Part shown: piece after piece, positions 27,035 through 38,998 of the stretch
Layout: each line of letters opens with the position of its first letter
Position numbering within the stretch: the stretch's first letter is position 1
Assembly: GCF_003001935.1 (NCBI RefSeq)
Contig: NZ_PVNG01000024.1
Span: 124,001 to 188,000 of the forward strand
DNA from: Nonomuraea fuscirosea
Lineage (GTDB): Bacteria > Actinomycetota > Actinomycetes > Streptosporangiales > Streptosporangiaceae
Length of the DNA stretch: 64,000 bases
Direction of reading: 5' to 3'
The notes under the pieces: model-generated
Told to the model about the DNA's origin: nothing
Database searches by the model: none
What the model saw: only the letters and a program-made list of their open reading frames with translations
Made by a program: the position numbers and the translations under genes

Positions 27035-27658
27035 ATGTCTGATCTGCTCGACTCGGACCGGCTCCGCCCTGACCGTCCCGGCTCCGACCGTCCCGACTCT
27101 GACCGTCCCGGTTCTGATCTGCTCGGCTCTGATCTGCTCGGACGGGCCCGGGCCGAGCGCGCGGCTCCCGGCGCCGCGCTGGCACAGGACGCGGTGGAGA
27201 TCGTACGGGCGGCGCAGGCCATGGCCGGGCGCTTCGGACGCGGCGGCCGGCTGCTCGCCTTCGGCGCCCCGGCGGACGCGGCGCACGTGGCGGTGGAGTT
27301 CACCCATCCGGTGATCGTGGGCAAGCGCGCGCTGCCTGCGCTCGCGGTGGACGCCGTGCTGCTCCGCACCCTGGGCCGGCCCGAGGACATCGCGCTCGGC
27401 ATCGGCCCGCGTCTCGGCGGCGGAACGGTGCTCGACGGCGGCGATCCGGAGGGCGGCGGGCGTGGGCCGGGTGGTTCGGCCCTGGAGGTGGCGCGCGGGC
27501 TGGGGATGTCGACGGTCGTGCTCACCGGCCCCTCCGGCGGCGTCGCGGCCGATCACGTGCTGCTCGCGCGCGCCGAGGATCCCCTGATCGCCAGGGAACT
27601 GCACGTCACCACCTATCACCTGCTCTGGGAGCTGGTCCACGTGTTCCTGGAGGCCTAG
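27035..27658 (+). CDS. SIS-like protein of the hydrogenase accessory operon
   Basis: 207 residues. Residues 5-36 are repeated acidic/basic pentads (GSDRP, DSDRP, GSDLL) from a 15-bp repeat and are probably disordered. The rest resembles a sugar-isomerase (SIS) Rossmann domain: GGRLLAFGAPADAAHVAVEF and GMSTVVLTGPSGGVAADH, ending TTYHLLWELVHVFLE like GmhA/DiaA proteins. The Ser-Thr sugar-phosphate loop of active isomerases is weak (TGPSGG), so it may not be catalytic. It overlaps the next gene (TAGTG) and is the first of three co-directional genes (SIS, HypC-like, SIS) convergent with the main hyp operon. Role in hydrogenase maturation is inferred from context. Confidence 0.75.
   Translation: MSDLLDSDRLRPDRPGSDRPDSDRPGSDLLGSDLLGRARAERAAPGAALAQDAVEIVRAAQAMAGRFGRGGRLLAFGAPADAAHVAVEFTHPVIVGKRALPALAVDAVLLRTLGRPEDIALGIGPRLGGGTVLDGGDPEGGGRGPGGSALEVARGLGMSTVVLTGPSGGVAADHVLLARAEDPLIARELHVTTYHLLWELVHVFLEA
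27071..27145 (+). repeat. 15-bp tandem repeat, five copies
   Basis: Units start at 27071, 27086, 27101 (gaccgtcccg type) and 27116, 27131 (gatctgctcg type). They encode a pentad repeat at the protein's N-terminus. Confidence 0.9.
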
Positions 27659-27876
27659 TGAACGTTCCCGACGATCCCGCCGACGCCTGCGAGAGCTGCG
27701 TGACCTGCGGTGACGTCGCCGTGCCCGTACGGATCGCGCGGCTGCTGCCCGACGGGCTGGCGCTGGCCGACACCGGCGACGGCATCGAGGAGATCAGTGT
27801 GGCGCTCGTCGCGGCGCGGCCGGGCGACACCGTGCTCGTGCATGCCAAGGAGGCGATCGCGGTGGTGACGCGATGA
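27658..27876 (+). CDS. HypC/HupF-like hydrogenase assembly chaperone, divergent type
   Basis: 72 residues. The chain after residue 20 has HypC features: VPVRIARLLPDGLALADTG, EEISVALVAARPGDTVLVHAKEAIAVV. HypC works with HypD to build the Fe(CN)2CO centre, using a Cys right after the initiator Met. Here the N-terminus is MNVPDDPADACESCVTCGD: Cys2 is missing and a cluster of three cysteines near residues 11-17 replaces it. This may be a specialised HypC or a metal/cluster-binding relative; a canonical HypC is at 30.9 kb. GTG 27658 shares a base with the upstream stop, and its own stop overlaps the next ATG by four bases. Confidence 0.78.
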   Translation: MNVPDDPADACESCVTCGDVAVPVRIARLLPDGLALADTGDGIEEISVALVAARPGDTVLVHAKEAIAVVTR

Positions 27877-28472
27877 CCGGCACGCTGTACCCGTTCCTGC
27901 GCCGCGAGTCTCTGGACCTGACCGCGTCCACGGCGGCCAAGGCGCGCGAGAGCCTGGAGTTGCGGCTGCGCGTCCTGGACGAGCTCGGCCCCGGCCTGTC
28001 GGCGTGCGCGTCGGCCGTGGCGGCGGCGCTGGGCGGAGGCGGGCGGGTGTTCGCCTTCGGCAACGGCGGGAGCGGCACCGACGCCGAGTCCGTGGCGGGG
28101 CTGTTCGTCGAACGGGGTCTGCCGGCGATCTCGCTGGCCTGCGACTGCGCGCTGGTGACGGCGCTCGGCAACGACGTCGGCTTCGAGGTGGTCTTCGCCC
28201 GCCAGCTCACCGCGCTCGGCGGGCCCGGCGATGTGGCGCTGGCGCTGTCCACGAGTGGCGGCTCGGCCAACGTGCTGCGCGGGCTGGCCGAGGCCGGGCG
28301 GCTGGGCATGGTGACGATCGGGTTCGCCGGCTCGGGCGGCGGGCGGCTGGCCGCGGAAGGGCTGGCCGAGCACCTGTTCGTGGTGCCGTCGTCGTCGGTG
28401 CACCGCATCCAGGAGGCCCAGGCGACGCTGTACCACCTGCTCGCCGAACTGGTCGCGGCGCAGACACCGTGA
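27873..28472 (+). CDS. SIS-domain phosphosugar isomerase-like protein (GmhA/DiaA type)
   Basis: 199 residues, close in length to GmhA (sedoheptulose-7-phosphate isomerase) and DiaA. FAFGNGGSGTDAESVAGLF is the GmhA-like glycine loop (GNGGSAxDA), VALALSTSGGSANVL the Ser/Thr phosphate loop (SxSGxSxN), and HRIQEAQATLYHLLAELV the C-terminal helix carrying the conserved Gln/His. All substrate-binding parts seem intact, so an isomerase or sugar-phosphate sensor is likely. Why it sits with hydrogenase genes is not known; such genes recur in actinobacterial hydrogenase clusters to my knowledge. ATG overlaps the upstream stop (ATGA). Confidence 0.82.
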   Translation: MTGTLYPFLRRESLDLTASTAAKARESLELRLRVLDELGPGLSACASAVAAALGGGGRVFAFGNGGSGTDAESVAGLFVERGLPAISLACDCALVTALGNDVGFEVVFARQLTALGGPGDVALALSTSGGSANVLRGLAEAGRLGMVTIGFAGSGGGRLAAEGLAEHLFVVPSSSVHRIQEAQATLYHLLAELVAAQTP

Positions 28473-28589
28473 CGAGGCTCGCCTGGCACGCGGCCGGCGG
28501 CCGGTCGCGCCGCCCGGTCTCCAGCGAACGGGGGACGGCCGGCCGCCCGAGCTCCACGGACGCGCGGTGGTGAATCGCCGGGTGGAATG

Positions 28590-29684
28590 TCAGCAGATGC
28601 GCGGCAGGGGGTCCCCGACCAGGATCTCGACGACGCGGGTGCCGCCGACGGCGGTGCGGAGCAGGACCATGGCGGCGGGCTCCGGGGCTACGGTGCCGAT
28701 GATCGCGGCCTGCTCGCCCAGCGGGTGGGCGCGCAGCGCGTCCAGGGCGCGGGTGGCGTGGTCGCCGTCCACGACAGCCACGAAACGGCCCTCGCAGGCC
28801 ACGTAGAGCGGGTCGAGGCCGAGCAGCTCGCAGACGCCGGTCACCTCCGGGCGTACGGGGATCGCCGCCTCCTCCAGCACCACGGCCACGTTCGAGGCGG
28901 CGGCGACCTCGTTCAGCACCGTGGCCACTCCGCCGCGCGTGGCGTCGCGCAGGGTCCTGACCCGCCCGCCGGGCAGGGCGTCCAGCAGCCCGGCGACGAC
29001 GCCGTGCAGCGGCGCGGTGTCGGAGACGATCGCGGCCTCGATGTCGAAGTCGCCCCTGGCCAGCATGACGGCGGCGCCGTGGGCGCCGATCGGGCCGGAG
29101 ACGAGGACCGCGTCGCCGGGCCGCGCGGCGGCGGACGAGAGCGTGACGGGCCGTTCGATGATGCCGACGCCGGTGGTGGTGATGTAGCAGCCGTCGGCGC
29201 GGCCCCGCTGGACGACCTTGGTGTCGCCGGTGACGATCTCCACCTCGGCGGCGGCAGCCGCGGCGGCCATGGAGGCGGCGATCCTGCGCAGGTCCTCGAC
29301 CGGCAGGCCCTCCTCCAGGATGAACCCGGCCGACAGGTACCGCGGGCGGGCGCCGCACATGGCCAGGTCGTTCACGGTGCCGTTCACGGCCAGGTCGCCG
29401 ATGTCGCCGCCGGGGAAGAACAGCGGGGAGACGACGTACGAGTCGGTGGTGAAGGCGAGGTTGACCCGCACGCCCTCCTCGCCCGCGCCGAGCCGCAGGG
29501 TGGCGCCGTCCTCCAGCGGTTCGAGCAGCGGGTTGCGGAACGCGTCCAGGAAGACGGCCTGCACCAGCGTCTGCGTGGCCCGGCCTCCCGAGCCGTGGGC
29601 GAGCGTGATGCGCTCCTCCCTGACGACCGGCCGGCGCCGCCTGGCCCGCTCGATCCGATCGAGCACCTGCTGTTCCGTGCTCAC
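28590..29684 (-). CDS. hypE: Hydrogenase maturation protein HypE
   Basis: 364 residues. HypE converts a carbamoyl group on its C-terminal Cys into the cyanide ligand of the NiFe site, using ATP. ERITLAHGSGGRATQTLV near the start, LAFTTDSYVVSPLFFPGGDIGDLAVNGT (shown in part) and TLRDATRGGVATVLNE are the PurM-like ATP-binding motifs, and the protein ends PRIC with the reactive cysteine last, as in active HypE. GTG 29684. HypF, which supplies the carbamoyl group, is not in the window. Last gene of the minus-strand hydrogenase operon; convergent with the SIS operon. Confidence 0.95.
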   Translation of the reverse strand: MSTEQQVLDRIERARRRRPVVREERITLAHGSGGRATQTLVQAVFLDAFRNPLLEPLEDGATLRLGAGEEGVRVNLAFTTDSYVVSPLFFPGGDIGDLAVNGTVNDLAMCGARPRYLSAGFILEEGLPVEDLRRIAASMAAAAAAAEVEIVTGDTKVVQRGRADGCYITTTGVGIIERPVTLSSAAARPGDAVLVSGPIGAHGAAVMLARGDFDIEAAIVSDTAPLHGVVAGLLDALPGGRVRTLRDATRGGVATVLNEVAAASNVAVVLEEAAIPVRPEVTGVCELLGLDPLYVACEGRFVAVVDGDHATRALDALRAHPLGEQAAIIGTVAPEPAAMVLLRTAVGGTRVVEILVGDPLPRIC

Positions 29685-29746
29685 GCGCGGCTCACCCTTC
29701 CCTCGCTGCCGGCCACCTGCCGTTCTGCGGTCACGCGCGGCTCACC
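29681..29746 (-). repeat. 16-bp exact direct repeat, 50 bases apart, at the hypE/hypD junction
   Basis: tcacgcgcggctcacc occurs at 29681-29696 (over the hypE start) and 29731-29746 (over the hypD stop), with related flanks, so the junction was partly duplicated. Confidence 0.9.
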
Positions 29747-30876
29747 TCCCGCTCGCCGGCCGGGCCGCGCGTCCTGTCGCGGGTGAAGCGGCCGAAGTTG
29801 TAGTACGCGGCGCAGGCGCCCTCCGAGGAGACCATGCACGTCCCGATCGGCGTCTCCGGCGTGCAGGCGGTGCCGAACACCTTGCACTCCCAGGGCTTGA
29901 GCACGCCCTTCAGCACCTCGCCGCACTGGCACGAGCGCGGGTCGGCGACGCGTATCCCGGGCAGGTCGAAGACGCGCTCGGCGTCGAAGGCCGCGTACTC
30001 CTCGGCCATGGCCAGCGCCGAGTGGGCGATGAAGCCCAGCCCGCGCCACTCGAAGTGCGGCCGCAGCCGCATCACCCGCCCGATCGCCTCCAGCGCGACC
30101 GGGTTGCCCTGCCAGGGCACCACCCGCGCGTACTGGTTCTCCACCTCGCACCGCCCCTCGGCGAGCTGGCCGAGCAGCATGTGCACCGAGGTCAGGATGT
30201 CCACCGGCTCGAAACCCGCCACGACCAGCGGCTTGCGGTAGTCGCGGGCGATGAACGCGTACGGCTCGCAGCCGATCACCGCCGACACGTGGCCGGGGCC
30301 GATGAAGCCGTCCAGCCGCAGGTCCGGCGAGTCGAGAATGGCCTTGATCGCCGGAATGATCATGACGTGGTTGCAGAAGACGGAGAAGTTCGGCACGCCC
30401 TCCGCCGCCGCCCGCAGCACGGTCATCGCGGTGGACGGCGCGGTGGTCTCGAAGCCGATGGCCATGAAGACGACCCGGCGGTCCGGGTTCTCCTTGGCGA
30501 TCTTGAGCGCGTCGAGCGGTGAGTACACCATCCGGATGTCCGCCCCCGCCGCCTTGGCGCCCAGGAAGGATCCGGTGCCGCCGGGCACGCGCAGCAGGTC
30601 GCCGAACGAGGTCATGATCACGCCGGGCTGCCCGGCGATGTGGGTGGCGTCGTCCACCCGGCCCATCGGGATCACGCACACCGGGCAGCCGGGCCCGTGG
30701 ACCAGCGAAACCTCCGGCGGCAGGTGGTCCTCCAGCCCGTGCTTGTAGATGGTGTGCGTGTGGCCGCCGCACACCTCCATGAACGCGTACGTCCGTCCCG
30801 GACGGCACCGTGCCGCGATCCCGGCGGCCAGGGCGCGCGCCCGGTCCGCGTCGCGGTACTCATCGACGAAGCGCAT
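29731..30876 (-). CDS. hypD: Hydrogenase maturation protein HypD
   Basis: 381 residues. HypD is the iron-sulfur scaffold that, with HypC, carries the Fe(CN)2CO unit. Signatures present: MEVCGGHTHTIYKHGLE (catalytic Cys), HGPGCPVCVIP (CxxC), GFETTAPSTAM, and cysteines of the 4Fe-4S site in DPRSCQCGEVLKG, ECKVFG and CMVSSEGACAAYY. ATG 30876 has GGAGG four bases upstream. It follows hypC directly on the same strand with a short gap, consistent with one operon. Confidence 0.96.
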   Translation of the reverse strand: MRFVDEYRDADRARALAAGIAARCRPGRTYAFMEVCGGHTHTIYKHGLEDHLPPEVSLVHGPGCPVCVIPMGRVDDATHIAGQPGVIMTSFGDLLRVPGGTGSFLGAKAAGADIRMVYSPLDALKIAKENPDRRVVFMAIGFETTAPSTAMTVLRAAAEGVPNFSVFCNHVMIIPAIKAILDSPDLRLDGFIGPGHVSAVIGCEPYAFIARDYRKPLVVAGFEPVDILTSVHMLLGQLAEGRCEVENQYARVVPWQGNPVALEAIGRVMRLRPHFEWRGLGFIAHSALAMAEEYAAFDAERVFDLPGIRVADPRSCQCGEVLKGVLKPWECKVFGTACTPETPIGTCMVSSEGACAAYYNFGRFTRDRTRGPAGEREVSRA

Positions 30877-30885
30877 GTGCCCTCC

Positions 30886-31158
30886 TCAGGTGATGTCCGA
30901 CGCGCGCAACGCGTCGATCTCGTCCTCGTACGGCTGCCCGAGCCCTTCCAGGTACGCCAGCACGGCCTGCGCCTCGTCCTCGGAGATCTTGGACAGCGCG
31001 AACCCCACGTGCACGAGGACCCAGTCGCCAGGGTTCAGCTCCTGGCCTTCGAGCAGCCCGATGTTGACGCGTCGCCGTACCCCGCTGACCTCGACCAGGG
31101 CCAGGTCGTCGTGCCCGCCGGCCGGGCCGACCAGCTCACCGGGAATGCCCAGGCACAT
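30886..31158 (-). CDS. hypC: Hydrogenase maturation chaperone HypC (canonical)
   Basis: 90 residues. MCLGIPGELV is the family start with the essential Cys2, then RRRVNIGLLEGQELNPGDWVLVHVGFALSKISEDEA, quoted here only as the typical GDWVLVHVGFAL core. It partners HypD and delivers the Fe(CN)2CO group to the large subunit. The gene starts inside the 3' end of hypA (23-base overlap), so translation is coupled. A second, divergent HypC is at 27.7 kb. Confidence 0.96.
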   Translation of the reverse strand: MCLGIPGELVGPAGGHDDLALVEVSGVRRRVNIGLLEGQELNPGDWVLVHVGFALSKISEDEAQAVLAYLEGLGQPYEDEIDALRASDIT

Positions 31159-31507
31159 CGGCCGCCGTCCCCTCGCCGCCGAACCAGACCGACTCCAGCA
31201 CCAGCTCGTCCCCGCCGCTGACGCTCACGTCGCCGCTGCCGCAGGCCGGGCACGCGGCCAGCGTGTCCATCGACTCCGAGCGCCCGCCGCAGGCCACGCA
31301 CTCGATCGTGGCCGGCACGATGATCAGATCGATCACCGCGTCCTGCGCGGACGTTCCCGCGGCGGCCATGGTGAACGCCTGCCCGAACGCCTCCTCCACG
31401 ACCGCGTGCCTGGCTCCCACGCGTACCCGGGCCGAGGCCACCGGCCGGCCCGCCGCCTGGCTGTGGATCAGATCGACGAGTCCCTCGCACAGCCCGATCT
31501 CGTGCAC
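31136..31507 (-). CDS. hypA: Hydrogenase nickel incorporation protein HypA
   Basis: 123 residues. MHE at the start is the nickel-binding motif (His2) and CVACGG...CPACGS is the four-cysteine zinc site (about residues 74-94). HypA passes nickel to the hydrogenase large subunit, normally with the GTPase HypB, which is not in this window. Start GTG 31507 directly abuts the stop of the upstream microprotein gene; GGAG lies about ten bases upstream, inside that gene. The 3' end overlaps hypC. Confidence 0.95.
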   Translation of the reverse strand: MHEIGLCEGLVDLIHSQAAGRPVASARVRVGARHAVVEEAFGQAFTMAAAGTSAQDAVIDLIIVPATIECVACGGRSESMDTLAACPACGSGDVSVSGGDELVLESVWFGGEGTAADVPGHSR

Positions 31508-31615
31508 CTACATCCGCTCCATCCTGATGTACCGGCGGATCTCCGGCCACTGGTGGACCACGATCGCCGCCAGCCCGCAGAGCAGGAGCAACCGCACCAT
31601 CCGCGATTTCCACAT
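31508..31615 (-). CDS. 35-residue membrane microprotein of the hydrogenase operon (DUF6893-like)
   Basis: A 35-residue reading frame, too short for most ORF tracks, fills the space between the endopeptidase and hypA genes. It opens MWKSRMVRLLLLCGLAA, continues as a single hydrophobic helix, and ends with a basic WPEIRRYIRMERM-type tail. ATG 31615 has GAGGTGA about six bases upstream, and the stop abuts the hypA GTG. Similar one-helix small proteins (DUF6893) accompany this hydrogenase type to my knowledge. A single-pass peptide could anchor or assemble the soluble enzyme at the membrane; that is inference. Confidence 0.72.
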   Translation of the reverse strand: MWKSRMVRLLLLCGLAAIVVHQWPEIRRYIRMERM

Positions 31616-31626
31616 GCCACGTCACC

Positions 31627-32484
31627 TCATCCGTGAGCACGATCGCGGCAGCCCCGTCCGGCGCTTTCCGCAATCATTTCCATAACCAGGGCATTCACCA
31701 GGCTCGCCGCCTCCGGGACGGCGACCTGGACGGGGGCGCTCAGCTCGTACAGCGCCTCGGCCGCGCTTGCCGGCTCGCAGCACACGATCCGGATCAGGCG
31801 GGGCACCGGGCCCAGCTCCGCGGCCAGCCGCAGCACCTTGACCGGGTCCATGCCGTGCGTCTCCAGCGGCTGCCCGCCGCCGCCGGCGGGCGCTCCCGAC
31901 GTTTCCCGCTGTCCGGGGGCCGCGTGCTCTGCCGGCTCTGTGGGCTCTGTGGGGTCGAGGACGGTGAGCGTGCCCGGCGGCTCGCCGCGCGGGGACGCGT
32001 CGACGAGGATCACGGCGTCGTAGTCGCGTTGCAGCGCGTAGACCAGGTCCATGCCGCGGATGCCGAAGTCCACGACGTCGACGCCGGGCGTGCGGGGTGC
32101 GGCCGACAGGTGGCGGGCCACCTCGACGCCGAAGCCGTCGTCGCCCAGGAAGACGTTGCCGATCCCGGCCACCAGGACGCGGCACGCCCGCTCGCCGAGC
32201 GGCTCGATCTCGTCGGCCGCGTAGAAGAAGCGGTGGCCGGGAAGCCGGGCCTCGCCCAGGTCCCTGCCGGGGTCGTCGTCCACGGTGACGGCGAAGTGGA
32301 ACGCGCCCTCCTCGTCCTGCTCGACCGCCTCCACCACGCCCTCCCTGCCCGTCAGGACCAGGTCGAGCACGTCGGCGGTGCCCCTCGGGCGCAGCCGTAC
32401 CCGGCTGCCCGCGCGCACCTCGACCCCGTCCACGACCACCTCGGCGGGGCCGCGCCCCTCCATCCGGGTCCAGAAGTCACCCAT
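31627..32484 (-). CDS. Hydrogenase maturation endopeptidase with N-terminal extension
   Basis: 285 residues. The second half (about 102-275) is the HycI/HupD-type peptidase: VLVAGIGNVFLGDDGFGVEVAR (Asp/Glu nickel ligand), DFGIRGMDLVYAL and LVDASPRGEPPG. It removes the C-terminal tail of the large subunit after nickel insertion. The first 100 residues form an extra domain (GSRVRLRPRGTADVLDLVLTG, GREGVVEAVEQDEEG) resembling a small beta-barrel and typical of proteases in actinobacterial clusters. A Pro/Gly linker with PTEPTEPAEH interrupts the peptidase region. ATG 32484. Confidence 0.9.
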   Translation of the reverse strand: MGDFWTRMEGRGPAEVVVDGVEVRAGSRVRLRPRGTADVLDLVLTGREGVVEAVEQDEEGAFHFAVTVDDDPGRDLGEARLPGHRFFYAADEIEPLGERACRVLVAGIGNVFLGDDGFGVEVARHLSAAPRTPGVDVVDFGIRGMDLVYALQRDYDAVILVDASPRGEPPGTLTVLDPTEPTEPAEHAAPGQRETSGAPAGGGGQPLETHGMDPVKVLRLAAELGPVPRLIRIVCCEPASAAEALYELSAPVQVAVPEAASLVNALVMEMIAESAGRGCRDRAHG

Positions 32485-32514
32485 GTGTCCCTCCCCCTTC
32501 CACCGGCCGGACGC

Positions 32515-33471
32515 TCATCCCGCCGGGCCTCTGCCGCGCCAGGCGCCGCTCAGGCGCATGAGCTCCTCCTGGGTGAGCGCCGCGCAGCGGTCGAGGATCT
32601 CGCGGGCGCGCGGGTCGCCGGCCCGGATCTCCTCCCGTTCCCCGTCGCTCAGCGCCAGCACGCAGAGGGTGAGGAGCTGGTCGATCTCGGTCGCGTCGAA
32701 CAGGTCACCGGGGCTCTCCGGCGCGATCTGCGGCTGGTCGTACAGGATGATCGGCGCCGACAGCACGGTGCGCAGGTCCTCCCCCGCCAGCACCGGCCAC
32801 AGGCCGTCGTTGCGGCAGGTTTCGGCGTGCTCGCGCAGGTCCGGCGGCGGGTCCGTCTGGGAGACGAAACGCCCCTCAGGCGCGTGCAGGACGACGTGCG
32901 CGGACACCAGCGTGCGGGCCATCGTCTCCTCCCGCGTCCCGCCCGGCTGCCACGGCGTGGTGTTGACGACGTCGGCCGTCACCCGGAAGAGCCGCGGCCC
33001 CAGCCGCTCGGCGCGCACCTCGACCTGCCCGCGCAACGCCTCCCACCGGCGCAGCACCCCCGCCCCGAGCTCCTGCCCCGCCTCGCGATCCTCCATCTCC
33101 GCGCGGTCGCCTACCGTGCGTTCCTCGCCCGCCGCGATGTCGATGCGGGCCAGGGCCGGGCCGCCGCCGAGCGTGAGCTCCGGTACGCGTACCTCGCGCT
33201 CGCGGGCCTCCTCGCCCCGACCGGCCGCGCCGATCCTGGCCACGACGTGCAGGAACCGTACCGACACCGCGACGGCGGCGCCGGGATCGGCCTCGACCAG
33301 GCACTCGGTACGGATCCGCGACCGGTCGCCGCACCCCTCCGGATGGACGCCGCCGATCGTCCAGCGGTGCCGGTTCTTCAGCGCGGACTCGCGGTAGGGC
33401 CACAGCAGATAGCCCTCGTAGAGCACCGCCCGCGCGATCCGCCCGACGTGGTCCAGCCCGCCGTCCGTCAT
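32515..33471 (-). CDS. Conserved hydrogenase-cluster protein of unknown function (318 aa)
   Basis: 318 residues, soluble, no signal peptide or membrane segment. The start, GRIARAVLYEGYLLWPYRES and KNRHRWTIGGVHPEG, is distinctive; the middle is beta-rich (VEVRAERLGPRLFRVTADV, RTLVSAHVVLHAPEG) and the C-terminus helical with LTQEELMRLSG. I recognise no characterised domain. Genes like this accompany group 1h hydrogenases in actinobacteria, so a maturation or electron-transfer accessory role is likely but unproven. ATG 33471 lies five bases from the preceding stop, so translation is probably coupled. Confidence 0.75.
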   Translation of the reverse strand: MTDGGLDHVGRIARAVLYEGYLLWPYRESALKNRHRWTIGGVHPEGCGDRSRIRTECLVEADPGAAVAVSVRFLHVVARIGAAGRGEEAREREVRVPELTLGGGPALARIDIAAGEERTVGDRAEMEDREAGQELGAGVLRRWEALRGQVEVRAERLGPRLFRVTADVVNTTPWQPGGTREETMARTLVSAHVVLHAPEGRFVSQTDPPPDLREHAETCRNDGLWPVLAGEDLRTVLSAPIILYDQPQIAPESPGDLFDATEIDQLLTLCVLALSDGEREEIRAGDPRAREILDRCAALTQEELMRLSGAWRGRGPAG

Positions 33472-33475
33472 GACA

Positions 33476-34114
33476 TCAGCCCTTCGCCAGCAGTGAGCGG
33501 ATCACGTCGTCCCAGCCGGGAAGCGTGTGCCGCACCTTGTACGCGTACAGCCGGTCGAACTCCTCCCGGCCCAGCCGGACCCAGGCCCCGCCGGGGAAGT
33601 GGCGTTCCATCAGCTCCCGCCACACCCGCACCGGCATCGAGAAGGCCGCCTCCGCCCGTCTGGGCAGGTGCGCGGCCTGCAGCCGGTCGCCGTCCAGGTA
33701 GAAGACGGTGCCGGTGAACAGGAAGTCCAGTGGCGCCTCGCCGTCCTCCAGGCCGTGGAAGTACTTGGCGGCGGCCACCTCGAAGTCGTATGTGCACGGC
33801 ACGGTGATCCGGGCCTTCGTGCTTGCGGTGAAGGCGGGCACCTGGGTGACGGTCTGCGTCCACAGCAGGCTGGACAGGTTGCGCGACCACTCGTCCGGCG
33901 GGCCGAACAGCTCGGCCAGCCGTTCCTTGTCGCGCTCGCCGTAGCCGCGGCGGGTGGCGTCGATGCGGATCTGGGTGGCGAGCGTGAGCGAGCGGACCTC
34001 GTGCCCGCCGGCGGCGCGCAGGGTCAGCGTGAAGTCGAGGGCGGGCACGGCGGCGGGCGCGGCCGGCTCGACGCCCTCGACCTCGATGCTCAGCTCGGGT
34101 GGCGCGGACGGCAT
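33476..34114 (-). CDS. DUF6084-family hydrogenase-cluster protein
   Basis: 212 residues, soluble. Highly regular beta-strand pattern early (LDFTLTLRAAGGHEVRSLTL, IRIDATRRGYGERDKERLAELF) and an ordered core with SSLLWTQTVTQVPAFTAST, CTYDFEVAAAKYFHGL, LFTGTVFYLDGDRLQ. This fits DUF6084, found with actinobacterial hydrogenases. Biochemical role unknown. Its single conserved Cys sits in PCTYDFE. ATG 34114 is two bases from the upstream stop. Confidence 0.78.
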   Translation of the reverse strand: MPSAPPELSIEVEGVEPAAPAAVPALDFTLTLRAAGGHEVRSLTLATQIRIDATRRGYGERDKERLAELFGPPDEWSRNLSSLLWTQTVTQVPAFTASTKARITVPCTYDFEVAAAKYFHGLEDGEAPLDFLFTGTVFYLDGDRLQAAHLPRRAEAAFSMPVRVWRELMERHFPGGAWVRLGREEFDRLYAYKVRHTLPGWDDVIRSLLAKG

Positions 34115-34115
34115 G

Positions 34116-34334
34116 TCAGGCGGGCGACAGGTTCGGCATGCCCGGGTCGATCGGGTCGTGCTTGCCGGGGTTGATGCCGGTCGAGCGCCTGGCCGTGGAG
34201 CGGCCGTCGGGCAGGTGACCGTCCTGCTTGTCGTAGTTGCCGGTGGAGTTGCCCTCCTTGACGCCCTTGACGTGGGAGGGAGCGTCGGGCTTGACGTCCG
34301 GCCTGCCGGTCCTGATGGGTTTGCGCGCGCTCAT
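34116..34334 (-). CDS. 72-residue hydrophilic protein of the hydrogenase operon
   Basis: 72 residues, very hydrophilic, rich in Lys, Arg, Gly, Pro and Asp (start MSARKPIRTGRPDVKPD; end HDPIDPGMPNLSPA). No predicted secondary-structure-rich core and no cysteines, so probably disordered. The ATG overlaps the stop of DUF5947 (ATGA), and the stop is one base from the DUF6084 start, so it is embedded tightly in the operon. That arrangement and its sharp codon bias support it as a real gene; function unknown. Confidence 0.72.
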   Translation of the reverse strand: MSARKPIRTGRPDVKPDAPSHVKGVKEGNSTGNYDKQDGHLPDGRSTARRSTGINPGKHDPIDPGMPNLSPA

Positions 34335-35050
34335 GCCGGGCTCCTGTCGTCGCTGAGGTCGGTGAAGAAACGGGCGATCCGCTCGCGTACGTCCGGGCCG
34401 CCGGTCAGGCCGCGCCAGTGGGAGCGGACCAGGCCGACGAGCCGGTAGCAGTCGTCGAGCGGGACGATCCAGGCGCCGTGGTCGCGGTCGAGCAGCAGCG
34501 CCTCGACGTCGGGCTCCAGCAGCGCCATGAGCGGGTCGTCCCAGGCCGGGCCCGCCACGGCGCCCGCCGGGCTGGGGTAGTACATGACGCTGCGGCCCGC
34601 GCCCGAGTCGCGTACCAGGAAGACGGTGCGGACGGGCGCGCCGAGGCCGGACCAGGTGAACCCGTCCTGCCGCTCGCGCCGCCGGGGCACCAGACGGTAT
34701 TGGGCGCCGCCGGCCGCGGCGTGGTCGAAGAGCACCTGGCAGGCGCGGCAGGCACAGCACAGCTCGCGGGTGGTCAGGTCGAGCAGGTGCCGATGCCCCT
34801 CGGGCACCGGCTCCCCGCACAACTCACACCGCTCCTCCGAGACCAGCTGATCGGCGTTCCCGGGGGAGGCGGTGGCGGGTGTGGTGGTGCGCCGGCGGCG
34901 GGTGAGGTCGTGCAGGCGCAGGCGGCCGCTCACGGTGCCGCCATCGCGCATCGTGCCGTTCACGGTGCCGCCATCGCGCGTCCTGCCGTTCACGGTGCCG
35001 CCATCGCGCGTGCTGCCGTTCACGGTGCCGCCTCCCGCTGTATCGGTCAC
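34331..35050 (-). CDS. DUF5947-family hydrogenase-cluster protein
   Basis: 239 residues. Residues about 8-47 are a repetitive linker (TVNGxTRDGG) from a 30-bp tandem repeat. The domain follows: RCELCGEPVPEGHRHL and CCACRACQVLF give a probable zinc or cluster site of four or more cysteines (about residues 75-105), then QYRLVPRRR, FTWSGLGAPVRTVFLVRD and VMYYPSPAG. DUF5947 proteins occur with group 1h hydrogenases; I infer a metal-binding assembly role. GTG 35050 overlaps the stop of the NifU-like gene by four bases. Confidence 0.82.
   Translation of the reverse strand: MTDTAGGGTVNGSTRDGGTVNGRTRDGGTVNGTMRDGGTVSGRLRLHDLTRRRRTTTPATASPGNADQLVSEERCELCGEPVPEGHRHLLDLTTRELCCACRACQVLFDHAAAGGAQYRLVPRRRERQDGFTWSGLGAPVRTVFLVRDSGAGRSVMYYPSPAGAVAGPAWDDPLMALLEPDVEALLLDRDHGAWIVPLDDCYRLVGLVRSHWRGLTGGPDVRERIARFFTDLSDDRSPA
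34931..35035 (-). repeat. 30-bp tandem repeat, 3.5 copies, in the DUF5947 gene
   Basis: Units at 34931, 34961, 34991 and a half unit at 35021 are almost identical and in frame, coding TVNG-type decapeptides. Confidence 0.95.
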
Positions 35051-35490
35051 TTCGCCGCCGCCCCGCGTCGTACGGTGAGGCTTTCGACGGGGATCACCGG
35101 CCGCTCGTCCAGCTCGACCTCGACCCGTTCCACCTCGGGTGCCGCCGCGCGCACCGCCCGTTCCACCCCCGCCGTGGCCGAGGAGCGGCAGCCGGAGGCG
35201 CGGACGCGCAGCCTGGCCACGCCGTCCTCCAGGGTCAGCAGCTCGGCCCCCGCCCCGGCCGCCGCCGCCTCCGCGCGGGCATGGGCGGGCAGCGGGTGCA
35301 GGTCGTGCAGGACGAGCAGGTGGGAGACCAGCTCGTCGCCGGCCAGCTCCGCCGCCAGCGGCTCGCCCGCCAGCGCCATCACCCGCGCCAGCCCGTCGCC
35401 GTACAGCTCCAGCAGCTCTCCGACCAGCTCGATCGCGGCCGGCTCGGCCTCGTCGAGCAGGGCCTCGATGCGCTCGATCCGCTCCGTCAT
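35047..35490 (-). CDS. NifU-like domain protein of the hydrogenase cluster
   Basis: 147 residues. N-terminal part is helical (TERIERIEALLDEAEPAAIE), followed by a NifU C-terminal-type scaffold domain: LLTLEDGVARLRVRASGCRSSA and AVRAAAPEVERVEVE. NifU domains hold a cluster with a CxxC pair; here only the second cysteine (GCRSS) is kept, the first being Ser, so it may transfer clusters by dimerising or may have lost that job. In context it would serve the iron-sulfur clusters of the small subunit. ATG 35490 lies 11 bases after the large-subunit stop. Confidence 0.85.
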   Translation of the reverse strand: MTERIERIEALLDEAEPAAIELVGELLELYGDGLARVMALAGEPLAAELAGDELVSHLLVLHDLHPLPAHARAEAAAAGAGAELLTLEDGVARLRVRASGCRSSATAGVERAVRAAAPEVERVEVELDERPVIPVESLTVRRGAAAK

Positions 35491-35501
35491 CGCCCCGCCG
35501 C

Positions 35502-37301
35502 CTATCCGGCCGCGCCGAACGTCGGCGAGTGCACCTGTTGGAGCACCTTCCCGTCGCCCAGGTACATGTGCACCCCGCACGGCAGGCACGGGTCGAAGCT
35601 GCGCACGGTGCGCATGATGTCGATGCCCTTGAACGAGTCGGGCCCGTTCTCCTCGAAGATCGGCAGCCCCTGGACGGCGTCCTCGTACGGACCTGGCGTG
35701 CCGAAGCTGTCACGCGGGCTGGCGTTCCACGGCGTCGGCGGGTACGGGTGGTAGTTCGCGATCTTGCCGTCCCTGATGACCATGTGGTGCGACAGCACCC
35801 CGCGCACGGCCTCGTGGAACCCGCAGCCGATCGCCTCGTCGGGCACGTCGAAGTCGCTGAACACCTGGGTCCGCCCGGCCCTGACCTCGCCCATCGCCTG
35901 CTCGACGAAGTAACACGCCATCGCCGCCGCGTAGGCGACGAAGTAGACCCGGGCCCGGTTGCGCTCGATGGTGTTGGCCCAGCGCGGCACCTTCCACTCG
36001 AAGCTCATCTCCGGCAGGGCCCTGCTCTTGGGCAGGTTGATCTCCACGGAGCCGCCCGTGGCGCGTACGGTGCCGGTGTCGACCAGCCCCGCGAGCGCGG
36101 TCGCCCAGAGCCTGGCCAGCGGGCCGCCGCCGGTGTCGAGCGCGAGGTGGTCGCCGGTGCGGTCGTCGTACCAGCGGGGGCTCATCACCCAGCTGTAGTT
36201 GCCGCCTTCCAGGTCGCGCTTCTGCGGCTTGGGCAGCGTGGTCTGGTTCCACGGGTGACGCTGGTCGACCGGGTTGCCGAGCGGGTCGTGGGTGACGAAC
36301 GTCTCCTCGGACTGCCAGTCGTCGTAGTAGGAGCTGCCGAGCAGGATGCGGATGCCGAGGTTGATGTCGACCAGGTTCGTGGTGAGCAGTTCGCCGTCGA
36401 GGACGATCCCGGGCGTGACGAACATCTTGCGGCCCCAGTCGGCCATGTTCCGGTAGTCGTAGTCGACGGCGGCGGGGTCCTGGAAGGCGCCCCAGCAGCC
36501 GAGCATCACCCGGCGCCGGCCGACCTCCTCGTAGCCGGGCAGCGCCTCGTAGAAGAAGTCGAAGAGGTCGTCGTTCATGGGGACGGCCTTCTTGACGAAG
36601 TCGAGCACGCGCAGCAGCCTGGCCAGGTAGTCGGTGAACACCTGGGGTGTCGCGACGGTGCCGACGCCGCCCGGATAGAGCGTGGACGGGTGCACGTGGC
36701 GCCCCTCCATCAGGCAGCACATCTCCCTGGTGACCCGGCTGACCTGCAGCGCCTCGCGGTAGACGTCGCCCTCGAACGGGTTGAACGCGCGCATGACGTC
36801 GGCGATCGTGCGGTAGCCGTGGATGCGGGCGTTCGGCGCCTCGGTGGTCTCGGCGCGCCGCAGCAGGCTCGGGTTGGTCTGCTTGACCATCTGCTCGCAG
36901 TAGTCGACGAAGACCAGGTTGTCCTGGAAGAGGGTGTGGTCGAACATGTACTCGGCGGCCTCGCCGAGGTTGATGATCCACTCGGCCAGCGGCGGCGGCT
37001 TGACGCCGTACGCCATGTTCTGCGCGTAGATCGAGCAGGTCGCGTGGTTGTCACCGCAGATGCCGCAGATGCGGCTGGTGATGAAGTGCGCGTCGCGCGG
37101 GTCCTTGCCCTTCATGAACACGCTGTAGCCGCGGAACAGCGACGAGGTGCTCCTGCACTCGACCACCTCGCGGTTGTTGAAGTCGATCTTGGTGTAGATG
37201 CCGAGGTTGCCGATGATCCTGGTGATCGGATCCCAGGACATCTCGACCAGTTCGCGCTCTGTACCGGTCTCCTGGCCGCGTCCCGCGGTACGGGTTGTCA
37301 C
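35502..37301 (-). CDS. hhyL: [NiFe]-hydrogenase large subunit, group 1h
   Basis: 599 residues; binds the NiFe(CN)2CO site and oxidises H2. The L1 motif RICGICGDNHATC (residues about 77-89) and L2 motif DPCLPCGVHMY (about 570-580) supply the four nickel-binding cysteines. Twenty-one residues follow the L2 His, a tail that the cluster's endopeptidase would remove. The form of both motifs matches actinobacterial high-affinity enzymes (group 1h, formerly group 5) that scavenge atmospheric H2. GTG 37301 is used; an ATG 20 codons inside (MSWDPITRI) is an alternative because family homology begins near there. Thirteen bases separate it from the small-subunit stop. Confidence 0.96.
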   Translation of the reverse strand: MTTRTAGRGQETGTERELVEMSWDPITRIIGNLGIYTKIDFNNREVVECRSTSSLFRGYSVFMKGKDPRDAHFITSRICGICGDNHATCSIYAQNMAYGVKPPPLAEWIINLGEAAEYMFDHTLFQDNLVFVDYCEQMVKQTNPSLLRRAETTEAPNARIHGYRTIADVMRAFNPFEGDVYREALQVSRVTREMCCLMEGRHVHPSTLYPGGVGTVATPQVFTDYLARLLRVLDFVKKAVPMNDDLFDFFYEALPGYEEVGRRRVMLGCWGAFQDPAAVDYDYRNMADWGRKMFVTPGIVLDGELLTTNLVDINLGIRILLGSSYYDDWQSEETFVTHDPLGNPVDQRHPWNQTTLPKPQKRDLEGGNYSWVMSPRWYDDRTGDHLALDTGGGPLARLWATALAGLVDTGTVRATGGSVEINLPKSRALPEMSFEWKVPRWANTIERNRARVYFVAYAAAMACYFVEQAMGEVRAGRTQVFSDFDVPDEAIGCGFHEAVRGVLSHHMVIRDGKIANYHPYPPTPWNASPRDSFGTPGPYEDAVQGLPIFEENGPDSFKGIDIMRTVRSFDPCLPCGVHMYLGDGKVLQQVHSPTFGAAG

Positions 37302-37314
37302 CTTGCCGTTCCCC

Positions 37315-38349
37315 CTAGTTGCCCCAGCGGGGGTCGTACCCGCTGGTCAGCTTGCGCCCGTTGTGCCGCCACTTCGGCTCCTTGTTGGCCGAGCGGTTGG
37401 TGATGGAGCGGAGCCTGCGGATCAGCGAGCCGTACGTGCCGCTCACCGCCGCCGACACCGATCCGCCGGGGGGTTCGTCCATGAAGGGCATGAACTTGTC
37501 GGGGAAGCCGGGCATCGTGCAGGCGATGCAGACGCCGCCCACGTTGGGGCAGCCCCCGACGCCGTCCATCCAGCCGCGCTTGGTGACGTTGCAGTTGACC
37601 ACCGGGCCCCAGCAGCCGACCCGCACCAGGCATTTGGGCGAGTTGTAGTCGTGCGCGAAGTCGCCCTGCTCGTAGTAGCCGGCCCGGTCGCAGCCCTCGT
37701 GCACGGTCTTGCCGAACAGCCAGGTGGGACGGAGCATCTCGTCCAGCGGGATCGTCGGCGCCAGGCCGGCCGCCTGGTAGAGCAGCCAGGTGAGGGTCTC
37801 CATGAAGTTGTCGGGCTGCACCGGGCAGCCGGGCACGTTCACGATCGGCAGGCCGCCCGCGGAGCGGAAGCCGGAGCCCAGGTAGTCGCCCAGGCCCATG
37901 GCGCCGGTGGGGTTGCCGGCCATGGCGTGGATGCCCCCGTAGGCGGCGCAGGTGCCGATCGCGACCACGGCCCACGCCTTGGGCGCCAGCCGGTCGATCC
38001 ACTCGTTGACGGTGATCGGCTCGCCGGTCACCGGGTCGTTGCCCATGGACGTCCAGAAGCCGTCGCCGTTGATCCGCTCGTTCGGGATCGACCCCTCGAC
38101 GACCAGGATGAACGGCCCCAGCTCGTCCCGGGCGGCCTGGTGGAAGGCGGCCATGAAGGCGTCGCCGACCTCGGTGGCCAGGACCTTGTTGTGCAGGTGC
38201 ACCTTGGGCAGGCCGGGCACGAGGCCGAGCAGCACGTCCTCGATGCTGGGCAGCGTGGCGGCGGTGACGGACACGGTGTCGCCGTCGCAGCTCAGCCCCT
38301 CCGAGGTCCACAGAATGTGCACCTCGTCGAGCGCGGTGGATGTCGTCAT
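37315..38349 (-). CDS. hhyS: [NiFe]-hydrogenase small subunit, group 1h
   Basis: 344 residues; carries three iron-sulfur clusters that take electrons from the active site. No Tat signal, so the enzyme is cytoplasmic. The first motif reads SCDGDTV: Cys21 is followed by Asp24 where other hydrogenases have Cys, matching the three-Cys, one-Asp proximal cluster known from the Ralstonia actinobacterial-type enzyme and linked to oxygen tolerance. IGTCAAYGG and PGCPVQPDN complete it; HEGCDRAGYY, CLVRVGCWGP, NCNVTKRGW and GGCPNVGGVCIACTMPG hold the medial and distal ligands. First gene of the operon; ATG 38349. Confidence 0.96.
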   Translation of the reverse strand: MTTSTALDEVHILWTSEGLSCDGDTVSVTAATLPSIEDVLLGLVPGLPKVHLHNKVLATEVGDAFMAAFHQAARDELGPFILVVEGSIPNERINGDGFWTSMGNDPVTGEPITVNEWIDRLAPKAWAVVAIGTCAAYGGIHAMAGNPTGAMGLGDYLGSGFRSAGGLPIVNVPGCPVQPDNFMETLTWLLYQAAGLAPTIPLDEMLRPTWLFGKTVHEGCDRAGYYEQGDFAHDYNSPKCLVRVGCWGPVVNCNVTKRGWMDGVGGCPNVGGVCIACTMPGFPDKFMPFMDEPPGGSVSAAVSGTYGSLIRRLRSITNRSANKEPKWRHNGRKLTSGYDPRWGN

Positions 38350-38375
38350 GGCCCAACCCCCCGATCGGCCACTCC

Positions 38376-38394
38376 AGGTGATGCTCCATCACCT
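38376..38394. promoter_or_regulatory. Inverted repeat upstream of the hydrogenase operon
   Basis: AGGTGATG-CTC-CATCACCT is a perfect 8-bp inverted repeat with a 3-base spacer, 26 bases upstream of the small-subunit ATG. It could be a regulator operator or a leader hairpin. A direct repeat gtagcgcac (38399-38407 and 38468-38476) also lies in this gap. Confidence 0.55.
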
Positions 38395-38563
38395 CTCCGT
38401 AGCGCACATACCGCTCAGAACGCGCCCGCAAACCCGGAGCCGTAACATGACGCAAGGTGAGCATTCTGTAGCGCACCGTGTCATAACCTGCGCTTGCGCG
38501 AGAAGGCGGGTGCGGGCGGACACTCGAAGTGACCGCCTCATCGCCCGACCGAGGAGGCTCCTC

Positions 38564-38998
38564 GTGCGCGACGGGTTCGAGTCCCGAGAGTCCTGGCCCT
38601 TCGAGTGCCTGCGCTGCCTGTATGTCTGGGAGGAGGACTACCTTGTCCGTCACGTGACCGACGACCACGGCAACGAGGTCGAGGTCTGGCTCAGCGCCGG
38701 AGTGACCGTGCAGCCGCCCTGGTCGGGGATGGCCTGCCCGGCGTGCGGCGCCTACCGCCTGACCTCGTTCCCCGCCCACTACCTCAGCCGGCATCCCGAG
38801 CTGACGGCGGCGCCCGACCCCGCGCCGCTCGCCAGAGCGCCGGTCGTCCCCGCCGGGGACGCGGAGCCGTCGATGACCGCGCCGGTCGTCCGGGTGCCGC
38901 TGCCGCGCCGGATGCTCATCGCACTCGGCGTGCCGGTGATCGCCTTCGCCGGCTACGAGTTCTACCGGTACGTCTTAGCCCCTGTCGGCCATCACTAG
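38564..38998 (+). CDS. Zinc-ribbon-like protein with C-terminal membrane helix
   Basis: 144 residues. FECLRCLYVWEEDY and MACPACGAYRL give two CxxC knuckles (about residues 14-17 and 57-60), a rubredoxin/zinc-ribbon arrangement, with HYLSRHPE after it. Residues about 115-138 (MLIALGVPVIAFAGYEFYRY) form a transmembrane helix. GTG 38564 has GAGGAGG six bases upstream. It is divergent from the hydrogenase operon, 214 bp apart, and might participate in electron transfer or regulation; that is inference. Similar ORFs occur beside group 1h clusters to my knowledge. Confidence 0.72.
   Translation: MRDGFESRESWPFECLRCLYVWEEDYLVRHVTDDHGNEVEVWLSAGVTVQPPWSGMACPACGAYRLTSFPAHYLSRHPELTAAPDPAPLARAPVVPAGDAEPSMTAPVVRVPLPRRMLIALGVPVIAFAGYEFYRYVLAPVGHH

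Follow-up and report, generated by a model that had tools for sequence, protein, structure and literature searches.

A group 1h [NiFe]-hydrogenase locus of Nonomuraea fuscirosea with a putatively split SIS active site and an accessory protein resembling part of DrmA

Group 1h ("actinobacterial") [NiFe]-hydrogenases are a known enzyme type that oxidizes trace H2. A gene block of Nonomuraea fuscirosea sets many further genes beside two hydrogenase subunits, which raises the question of which of them belong to the enzyme and what they may contribute. We analyzed the block within a window of 64,000 nucleotides (contig NZ_PVNG01000024.1, positions 124,001 to 188,000), to which all coordinates refer. 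The locus is a further instance of an already known hydrogenase cluster type; new are two proposals, one on a pair of SIS proteins and one on a DrmA-like 318-aa protein and its ~95-aa domain. The explanation that we favor, and consider probable as a whole, joins the observed gene content, conservation with the enzyme and residue patterns to a 1h hydrogenase with a dedicated set, in which the 318-aa protein, the ~95-aa domain and an endopeptidase would be linked in processing and a heteromeric SIS isomerase would stand near HypCD.

The gene block and its enzyme

The minus strand carries, in this order, genes for the small subunit, the large subunit, a NifU-like protein, DUF5947, a 72-aa protein, DUF6084, the 318-aa protein, the endopeptidase, DUF6893, hypA, hypC, hypD and hypE. 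A plus-strand series, SIS - HypC-like - SIS (27035-28472), converges on it. Gene calls and family matches agree with the two operons of the original prediction. The overlapping starts on which it had relied were found at three of the 12 minus-strand junctions (NifU-like/DUF5947, DUF5947/72 aa and hypA/hypC), the other nine being gaps of 0-46 nt, figures that rest on the start codons chosen in this analysis.

The small subunit (37315..38349, minus; 344 aa, HofK/HhyS type) matched 5aa5_A with E 5e-169, and the large subunit (35502..37301, minus; 599 aa, HofG/HhyL type) matched 5aa5_C with 1077.7 bits; HofK and HofG are nearest to both among solved structures. The large subunit has the motifs RICGICGDNH and DPCLPCGVH and a C-terminal extension beyond the His. 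The small-subunit motif SCDGD aligns with CDGD of HofK (5aa5) where 1cc1 has CTGC, which confirms the Cys-Asp proximal-cluster motif claimed earlier. Asp in place of Cys at this motif is a feature that we take to be a mark of group 1h. Judged from sequence, the block is a group 1h [NiFe]-hydrogenase cluster with HofK/HofG as nearest solved relatives; it would encode an uptake hydrogenase of the HhySL/HofKG type along with the enzyme's own set of maturation and assembly factors.

When compared with the HofKG locus of Cupriavidus necator H16 (pHG1; 5aa5), each subunit could be aligned along almost its entire length, and the order SSU-LSU-NifU-DUF5947-DUF6084-unknown-protease is the same. Unlike the window, pHG1 has hypF and hypB inside the cluster, an unknown protein of 476 aa that bears the ~95-aa domain, and a single complete SIS gene between hypC and hypD, while the 72-aa gene was not detected there. 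In Mycobacterium smegmatis, too, the structural operon of Hhy, a group 1h enzyme, includes a NifU-like gene, as described in passages of PMC6883350.

The hyp genes of the block, all on the minus strand, are hypA (31136..31507), hypC (30886..31158, with the start MCLGIP), hypD (29731..30876) and hypE (28590..29684; AIR synthase-type, C-terminus PRIC). The block had been called complete, which does not hold: hypF lies outside it on another contig (C25), and hypB was not found in the window genome, where two hypB-like matches fell below the hypB cut-off. Both of these candidates scored above the ureG cut-off and were rejected as UreG.

The accessory set, the 318-aa protein and DrmA

The window contains the NifU-like protein, DUF5947, DUF6084 and a member of the PHG069 family, the accessory set that goes with group 1h. 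A locus survey had been named in advance as a test of these genes, and it found them conserved with the enzyme. Among 80 loci gathered with a profile of the 318-aa protein, DUF6084 was present in all 80, DUF5947 in 77, the endopeptidase in 77, the NifU-like protein in 74 and the large subunit in 72; each of the eight loci lacking the large subunit has less than 3 kb of contig upstream. DUF6084 occurred in 24 of 246 genomes of the phylum, 22 of them alongside a large subunit of the 1h type (identity of 65% or more; 28 sampled genomes have one), and DUF5947 in 24 of 246, 23 of them with this subunit. Two well-covered 1h loci (L039 and L040) lack DUF6084, which speaks against a fully dedicated set. 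None of the accessory set was found at nine loci, from seven genomes, of a sister clade at ~42% identity. We leave the group of this clade unnamed because HofG alone among solved structures matched it at E up to 1e-60; an assignment to Huc/group 2a was dropped.

A divergent zinc-ribbon gene had also been counted into the block. It showed no sign of membership, being found in the window alone when 134 further loci, some of which do not reach that side, were searched with a single-sequence profile, and it was rejected as part of the hydrogenase system.

The NifU-like protein (35047..35490, minus; 147 aa) is a short form of the PHG066/HhyE family. It scored 17.3 bits against Pfam NifU, below the cut-off of 27, and was joined to the family by an iterated profile. 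HhyE of M. smegmatis has a CxxC in its NifU domain and two further C-terminal CxxC, and is truncated in some species (part of PMC6883350); the window protein differs from it in having a single Cys where the NifU CxxC would stand. The DUF5947 protein (34331..35050, minus; 239 aa) takes the place of PHG067, by family match and by gene order on pHG1, and its sequence reads CxxC...CxxC. The 72-aa protein (34116..34334, minus) belongs to a conserved family with no Pfam match, and the DUF6893 protein (31508..31615, minus) is 35 aa long, contains a hydrophobic stretch and ends in a conserved Met. The DUF6084 protein (33476..34114, minus; 212 aa) is a predicted beta-sandwich whose model (pLDDT 91) gave generic beta-sandwich matches with near ties (best Z 8.5) and no indication of function. 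A kinship between DUF6084 and the 318-aa protein found no support (hhalign probability 1%). Among the titles and abstracts listed as literature matches, none dealt with the function of DUF6084, DUF5947 or DUF6893.

The 318-aa protein (32515..33471, minus) takes the place of PHG069, and the endopeptidase, a hydrogenase maturation endopeptidase of 285 aa (31627..32484, minus), carries the mobile ~95-aa domain at its N-terminus. This domain occurs once per locus in 105 loci, a count that includes L038 and L091, apparently one contig counted twice: 39 times on the 318-aa homologue, 44 times on the endopeptidase and 22 times free. We therefore tie the 318-aa protein to large-subunit processing. It would act with the ~95-aa domain and the endopeptidase in removing the C-terminal peptide of the large subunit, and the domain common to protein and endopeptidase offers a first testable step for PHG069.

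The NifU-like protein, DUF5947, DUF6084 and DUF6893 would be partners of the 1h enzyme in assembly or electron transfer. Another reading is that the NifU-like, DUF5947, DUF6084 and 318-aa proteins are not maturation factors but belong to the mature enzyme, as its subunits or its electron acceptors. HhyE and HucE have been proposed as electron acceptors, deletion of hhyE in M. smegmatis abolished Hhy staining and lowered H2 uptake 8.4-fold, and PHG067 is likewise named as a proposed acceptor (all in passages of PMC6883350); the CxxC...CxxC pattern of the window's DUF5947 points the same way. Against this, 64 of the 108 loci with a NifU-like match, the window included, lack the CxxC of this protein, and the same cluster binding in all of them is therefore not possible; in addition, the shared domain links the 318-aa protein to the endopeptidase. 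A subunit or acceptor role for the four proteins is possible, though we would lean against it. The deletion phenotype in that part of PMC6883350 and the correspondence of DUF5947 to PHG067 also narrow the original prediction of at least six genes without a known role, which is too strong for these two families. That prediction mentioned neither the complementary SIS residues nor the likeness of the 318-aa protein to DrmA nor the domain that it shares with the endopeptidase.

No Pfam family matched the 318-aa protein at E up to 0.1, but its predicted fold resembles the N-terminal part of DrmA, the helicase of the phage-defense system DISARM. The match, which begins at DrmA residue 149 (149-424 in 7s9v), reached a VIA Z of 10.3 over 168 residues, compared with 6.4 for the best non-DrmA entry, and a Foldseek E of 1.4e-5, the only match under 0.001. 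In sequence, a DrmA profile matched 49 of 60 homologues of the 318-aa protein at the lax limit of E 1 (best 1.5e-11) and, in single scans with a limit of E 0.1, eight of nine homologues, the matches being collinear and confined to the N-terminal part of DrmA; the control family DUF6084 gave no match in 59. These results argue against a generic beta-sandwich match without kinship, which we nevertheless weighed. In its favor, the structural match has 11% sequence identity and a TM-score on the query of 0.32, the profile of the 60 homologues (A2) matched nothing among PDB sequences at E up to 10, not even DrmA of 7s9w, and the actinobacterial samples contained no full-length DrmA for a profile-to-profile comparison. 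A purely generic likeness seems rather unlikely to us.

The DrmA profile hit mostly the helicase part in 197 genomes of the class, where the listed N-terminal matches (G318 and G366) are themselves 318-aa homologues, and 315 genomes of another genus yielded a single match at E up to 1e-12, again to the helicase part. The 318-aa protein differs from DrmA in lacking the tandem RecA helicase domains and in standing in a hydrogenase context; we do not class it as DISARM. The structure paper on DrmA reports, in its passage on the non-helicase part, that no significant structural homologue was found (PMC9142583). If true, a link between this part and a hydrogenase factor would be new to both fields.

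A pair of SIS proteins with complementary residues

SIS1 (27035..27658, plus), whose true start may lie downstream of 27035 in view of its repetitive N-terminus, has kept the Zn ligands His64, Glu68 and His183 and lost the phosphate loops and Gln175. It had no Pfam match at E up to 0.1 and was assigned to the family through its relatives. SIS2 (27873..28472, plus) has kept the phosphate loops and Gln175, with Ser in the position of His64 and Leu in that of Glu68. Between them lies HypC2 (27658..27876, plus), with a HupF_HypC domain above the cut-off and a CxTC instead of the N-terminal Met-Cys of the HypC chaperone.

SIS2 and the Zn-ligand-type profile matched structures of GmhA, the sedoheptulose-7-phosphate isomerase; DiaA was also among the SIS-fold matches. 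In GmhA crystals, Zn is held by H61, E65 and H183 of one monomer and Q175 of its neighbor (according to part of PMC5387315). Because Gln175 comes from the neighboring monomer, a SIS1-SIS2 heterodimer would rebuild one site. Unlike GmhA, SIS1 and SIS2 each have an incomplete site; only the two together supply all four Zn ligands. The genes also differ from those of GmhA in being linked to hyp genes and not to heptose synthesis. Going by these residues, SIS1 and SIS2 have apparently lost complementary parts of one GmhA-type active site. We propose that they would form one heteromeric GmhA-like isomerase, a predicted activity to which SIS1 would give His64, Glu68 and His183 for the Zn site and SIS2 Gln175 and the phosphate-binding loops.

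The same division recurs elsewhere. Two SIS types were present in 40 of 58 SIS-bearing loci and one complete protein in 15; L043 and L083 have the phosphate type only and L063 a fragment. All 40 two-type loci have the Zn-ligand type first and the phosphate type second, fused in one reading frame in 22. At most two of five loop Ser/Thr are left in the 40 first-type domains, and all five are kept, with Gln175, in the 42 second-type domains, every one of which has lost His64. Gln175 is retained in 22 of the 40 first-type domains, which speaks against a clean split. Second-type domains have Asp (21 of 42) or Glu (2 of 42) at the place of Glu68 and Asp at that of His64 (28 of 42), and therefore some second halves might still hold metal. 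Among 20 SIS proteins encoded elsewhere in these genomes, 18 were complete and none was of the Zn-ligand type; H64 was lost in two. In a tree each SIS type formed one clade (supports 100/98 and 100/99). Two changes on this tree, that is one origin, are enough for the pair, and the 40 loci therefore do not represent 40 independent events. The split pair would be related to the single complete SIS of C. necator, other Proteobacteria and some Acidobacteria.

The pair might instead be no enzyme but a DiaA-like regulatory or scaffold heteromer in which fold constraint keeps residues of the old site. This would suit the DiaA matches, the strong divergence of the window's SIS1 away from any Pfam match, and the loss of further site residues in L048 and L157, where both halves are more degenerate and the second has Tyr at His183. 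On the other side, what one half has kept would join with what the other has kept into one site across the interface, all 40 pairs being divided in this way, and drift in a mere scaffold is not expected to keep complementary residues. We thus doubt the scaffold reading and retain the isomerase.

The SIS pair at the hydrogenase locus

In C. necator the SIS gene is flanked by hypC and hypD, and in Methylocystis and Caballeronia it adjoins hypD. Because of the C. necator arrangement and the HypC-like gene between SIS1 and SIS2, the split isomerase would work on or near the HypCD scaffold step; this placement is the weakest part of our explanation and should be read as tentative. It would nonetheless give a concrete partner to test at that step and possibly a part of enzyme assembly. 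Strong Zn-ligand-type matches (at least 140 bits, with a query alignment drawn partly from the same 246 genomes) occurred in 33 of 246 genomes, and 27 of the 33 had some hydrogenase large-subunit match, compared with 99 of 246 overall. M. smegmatis likewise has a gmhA-annotated gene near hyp genes, MSMEG_2706, which a microarray table of PMC5445863 lists with hydrogenase genes. Of the 28 genomes that encode a 1h-type large subunit, 10 had no strong match, and the pair is therefore not needed by the 1h enzyme as such. Among the literature titles and abstracts listed as matches, none concerned a role of SIS or phosphoheptose isomerase in hydrogenase or Hyp function, "SIS domain" being met in a table. 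That the SIS-HypC-SIS genes serve another process such as heptose metabolism and stand here by chance would fit the two further complete-site SIS proteins of the window genome (G000:C1 and C25) and the many 1h loci without a visible SIS gene, but it is very unlikely given the co-occurrence with large subunits, the place of SIS beside hypD in C. necator, Methylocystis and Caballeronia, and MSMEG_2706.

Going further, 1h hydrogenases and their sisters in aerobic soil bacteria might use a dedicated sugar-phosphate isomerase, built of two mutually dependent halves at the HypC-HypD scaffold, that makes or delivers the precursor of the iron-bound CO, or of another small group, without HypX. We offer this as a long shot. 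Among the 28 genomes encoding a 1h-type large subunit, 23 showed no HypX (E up to 1e-15), five have it, 18 have a strong Zn-ligand-type SIS match and two (the window's own and G086) have both, numbers too small and mixed to support SIS as a HypX replacement. The window genome, which has the SIS pair, also encodes a HypX homologue (G000:C6:192653-194314, 47% identity), and may therefore obtain its CO ligand by the aerobic route already known.

The hydrogenase block and its accessory set

Gene calls and family searches confirmed both gene series of the original prediction, the minus-strand run that starts with the small subunit and ends with hypE, and a convergent SIS, HypC-like, SIS run on the plus strand. 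Against the Cupriavidus necator actinobacterial hydrogenase (structure 5aa5), the small subunit aligned with HofK across residues 5-338 (E 5e-169); for the large subunit, HofG scored 1077.7 bits. The predicted Cys-Asp motif was also recovered, CDGD of the small subunit aligning with CTGC of hydrogenase 1cc1. The genome, a 12.18-Mb draft in 93 contigs, yielded one small-subunit and one large-subunit match, and we class the locus as a new group 1h member. Nonomuraea (family Streptosporangiaceae) provided the best named matches of the 318-aa protein (32515-33471, minus strand), among the matches listed, and the rows nearest both SIS proteins in their tree.

The accessory genes, which could have proved unlinked to the hydrogenase, were conserved with the enzyme in surveys of 246 genomes and 80 loci. 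In 28 of the 246 genomes of the phylum sample, a large-subunit match reached 65% identity or more (1h-type, counted by hand, some being fragments). DUF6084 was present in 24 of the 246 (22 of them 1h-type), DUF5947 in 24 (23) and DUF6893 in 22 (17). The two exceptions for DUF6084 (G189 and G216) carry the gene near a contig end. For DUF6893 the exceptions were these two genomes, G150 with the decayed 1h locus L157, G195 with hyp genes and an endopeptidase in a locus (L158) without large subunit, and G214, where a 795-codon frame contains a partial match, probably by chance. Six 1h-type genomes lacked DUF6084; in four of them (G107, G130, G184, G227) the hydrogenase genes were fragmentary or cut off. 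In two well-covered loci without DUF6084 (L039, L040), the 318-aa gene lies upstream of the small subunit. L157 (G150:C1:2940000-2958000), in a one-contig genome, retains hypA, DUF6893, endopeptidase, SIS pair and hyp genes, with the small subunit only as fragments and the large subunit absent. Another decayed 1h locus, L166 (G107:C7), holds weak remnants of both subunits and hypE.

The 80 loci were those of the best 80 of 571 relatives of the 318-aa protein, among the matches listed, whose titles include Actinobacteria, Chloroflexi, Acidobacteria, Verrucomicrobiota, Proteobacteria (e.g. Methylocystis, Caballeronia) and Gemmataceae. These 80 contained DUF6084 (80), DUF5947 (77), endopeptidase (77), NifU-like protein (74), large subunit (72), DUF6893 (57, 39 with at least 30 bits) and the 72-aa protein (48). 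The eight loci without large subunit had less than 3 kb of contig upstream, and all 71 large subunits of at least 300 bits shared the strand of the 318-aa gene. Nine loci from seven genomes of the same phylum (L059-L067) belong to a sister clade with about 42% identity. Small-subunit, endopeptidase-like and NifU-like matches occurred in 8/9 of them and hypD in 4/9, with DUF5947, DUF6084, DUF6893, the 318-aa and the 72-aa protein absent from all nine. HofG was the only solved structure matched by the sister-clade large subunit of L028 at E up to 1e-60. The divergent zinc-ribbon protein, originally counted as part of the system, was seen in the window alone among the loci searched.

Four acidobacterial loci (L106, L117, L147, L150) have a tandem pair of small-subunit matches ahead of a single large subunit, and on a Mycobacterium intracellulare plasmid (NZ_CP012886.2, L033) a nuo (complex I) series comes after a 1h cluster.

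A complementary pair of SIS proteins

All SIS domains scoring 25 bits or more in the loci collected (58 loci, 100 domains) were aligned, and positions were mapped through the alignment to Burkholderia pseudomallei GmhA, a sedoheptulose-7-phosphate isomerase with the zinc ligands H64, E68, Q175 and H183 (PMC5705639). In Neisseria gonorrhoeae GmhA, described as having the identical site, one monomer supplies H61, E65 and H183 and its neighbor supplies Q175 (PMC5387315). Two SIS types occurred together in 40 of the 58 loci, always in the order first type, second type (40/40), and within one stop-free reading frame in 22 of these. The first type (in the window SIS1, 27035-27658, plus strand) retains H64 and E68 in 40/40 and H183 in 38/40, the other two being pieces cut short; Q175 is kept in 22 and replaced by Lys, Arg or Thr in 16. 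No more than two of five Ser/Thr are left in its GNGGS and STSG loops, which we take from the SIS fold to be phosphate-binding. The second type (in the window SIS2, 27873-28472, plus strand) retains all five loop residues and Q175 in 42/42 domains, having lost H64 in all 42 (Asp in 28) and E68 in 40 (Asp in 21). An Asp could still coordinate metal here, which leaves the loss in the fused proteins less clear-cut than that in the window's SIS2 with its Ser and Leu.

We read the observed residues of SIS1 and SIS2 as one composite isomerase-like site in a putative heteromer, whose assembly, activity and place of action we infer. This reading of the pair as complementary is new. In the SIS tree each type forms one clade (support 100/98 and 100/99), and the distribution of types needs just two changes. 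We conclude that the pair arose by one duplication and was kept in step over several phyla; the 40 paired loci are therefore not independent.

A single complete SIS protein was found in 15 of the 58 loci. The second type stood alone in L043 and L083, the latter stopping at the edge of the stretch taken; L063 had only a SIS fragment, and additional site residues were gone in L048 and L157. In L043 (G042:C308), a HypC-like gene precedes the phosphate-type SIS gene, and a Zn-ligand-type partner was not detected.

As a control, 20 SIS proteins were hand-picked from weaker first-type profile matches in the 246 genomes, without regard to their surroundings, and read at the corresponding positions; 18 were complete, two lacked H64 only and none was of the first type. 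The profile, built partly from genomes of the same set, reached 140 bits or more in 33 genomes, 27 of which also had some large-subunit match, vs. 99 of 246 overall. The single SIS gene of C. necator lies between hypC and hypD, SIS adjoins hypD in Methylocystis and Caballeronia, and in a Mycobacterium smegmatis microarray table MSMEG_2706 ("phosphoheptose isomerase gmhA") stands with hydrogenase genes (PMC5445863). In the HypC-like protein encoded between the window's SIS genes (27658-27876, plus strand), CxTC replaces the N-terminal MC. SDRPG/SDLLG repeats at the SIS1 N-terminus (27035-27110) overlap an opposite-strand frame with TrkH, and the start of each gene is tentative.

A domain shared between 318-aa homologs and the endopeptidase

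The C. necator homolog of the 318-aa protein has 476 aa, and many others exceed 400 aa (starts chosen by hand). The extra C-terminal ~95 aa of these long homologs correspond to the N-terminal domain of the window's endopeptidase. A profile of this domain found one copy per locus in 105 loci (L038 and L091, seemingly the same contig, both counted), carried by the 318-aa homolog in 39, by the endopeptidase in 44 and by a free stop-to-stop frame (100-332 codons) in 22. This sharing suggests a joint step of the two proteins. Because the domain is common to both, we lean toward a role of the 318-aa protein in removing the C-terminal peptide of the large subunit, a link to the endopeptidase that is new. 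Together with the SIS pair, it makes parts of 1h maturation testable.

The AlphaFold2 model of the 318-aa protein (60 sequences, pLDDT 80, pTM 0.74) resembled DrmA, the helicase of DISARM phage defense, in Foldseek (E 1.4e-5, TM-score 0.32) and in VIA (Z 10.3, 168 residues, 3.7 A; best non-DrmA entry Z 6.4). With a limit of E 1, the PADLOC DrmA profile matched 49 of 60 homologs, the strongest at 1.5e-11 and the protein of the window at 0.054; it matched 0 of 59 members of the control family DUF6084. Scanned singly, eight of nine homologs matched at E up to 0.1, within profile positions 77-333. Against the link counts that a profile of the 318-aa alignment had no match among PDB sequences. The N-terminal half of DrmA is described as a structural chassis without significant structural homologs (PMC9142583). 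These matches point to a link in fold, not to DISARM membership.

Nickel delivery and the remaining accessory proteins

The original prediction called the block complete, which did not hold. hypF lies on a different contig (C25:147471-149702, 770.5 bits), and hypB was not found in the genome, its two hypB-like matches falling under the hypB cut-off. Both score as UreG (263 and 277 bits, cut-off 204). Nickel would therefore be delivered by HypA with UreG or another factor. The two ureG genes lie apart, on contigs C2 and C4, adjoining frames whose sequence features resemble those of urease subunits. A homolog of HypX, of the CO-ligand route, is located on contig C6.

Among 108 loci with a NifU-like match scoring 40 bits or more, CxxC is present in 44 and missing from 64, one of them the window, which argues against a uniform Fe-S electron-carrier role of the family. 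In M. smegmatis without hhyE no staining of Hhy, its group 1h hydrogenase, was seen, and an assembly role of HhyE is also allowed by the authors (PMC6883350). An assembly role fits the family better than a uniform electron-carrier role.

Conserved genes of such clusters with no assigned role were earlier named HhaABC (PMC6776052) and PHG066-069 (PMC4377017). DUF6084 gave a confident beta-sandwich model without informative structural match. Of 68 DUF6893 matches of at least 30 bits, 67 end in RY...M with Met last, C. necator and Nonomuraea among them; our guess is a membrane anchor or adaptor. The conserved 72-aa family (34116-34334 and relatives) had no Pfam match, and the C-terminal part of the actinobacterial examples listed reads like PIDPxMPNLSPA or PNISPG.
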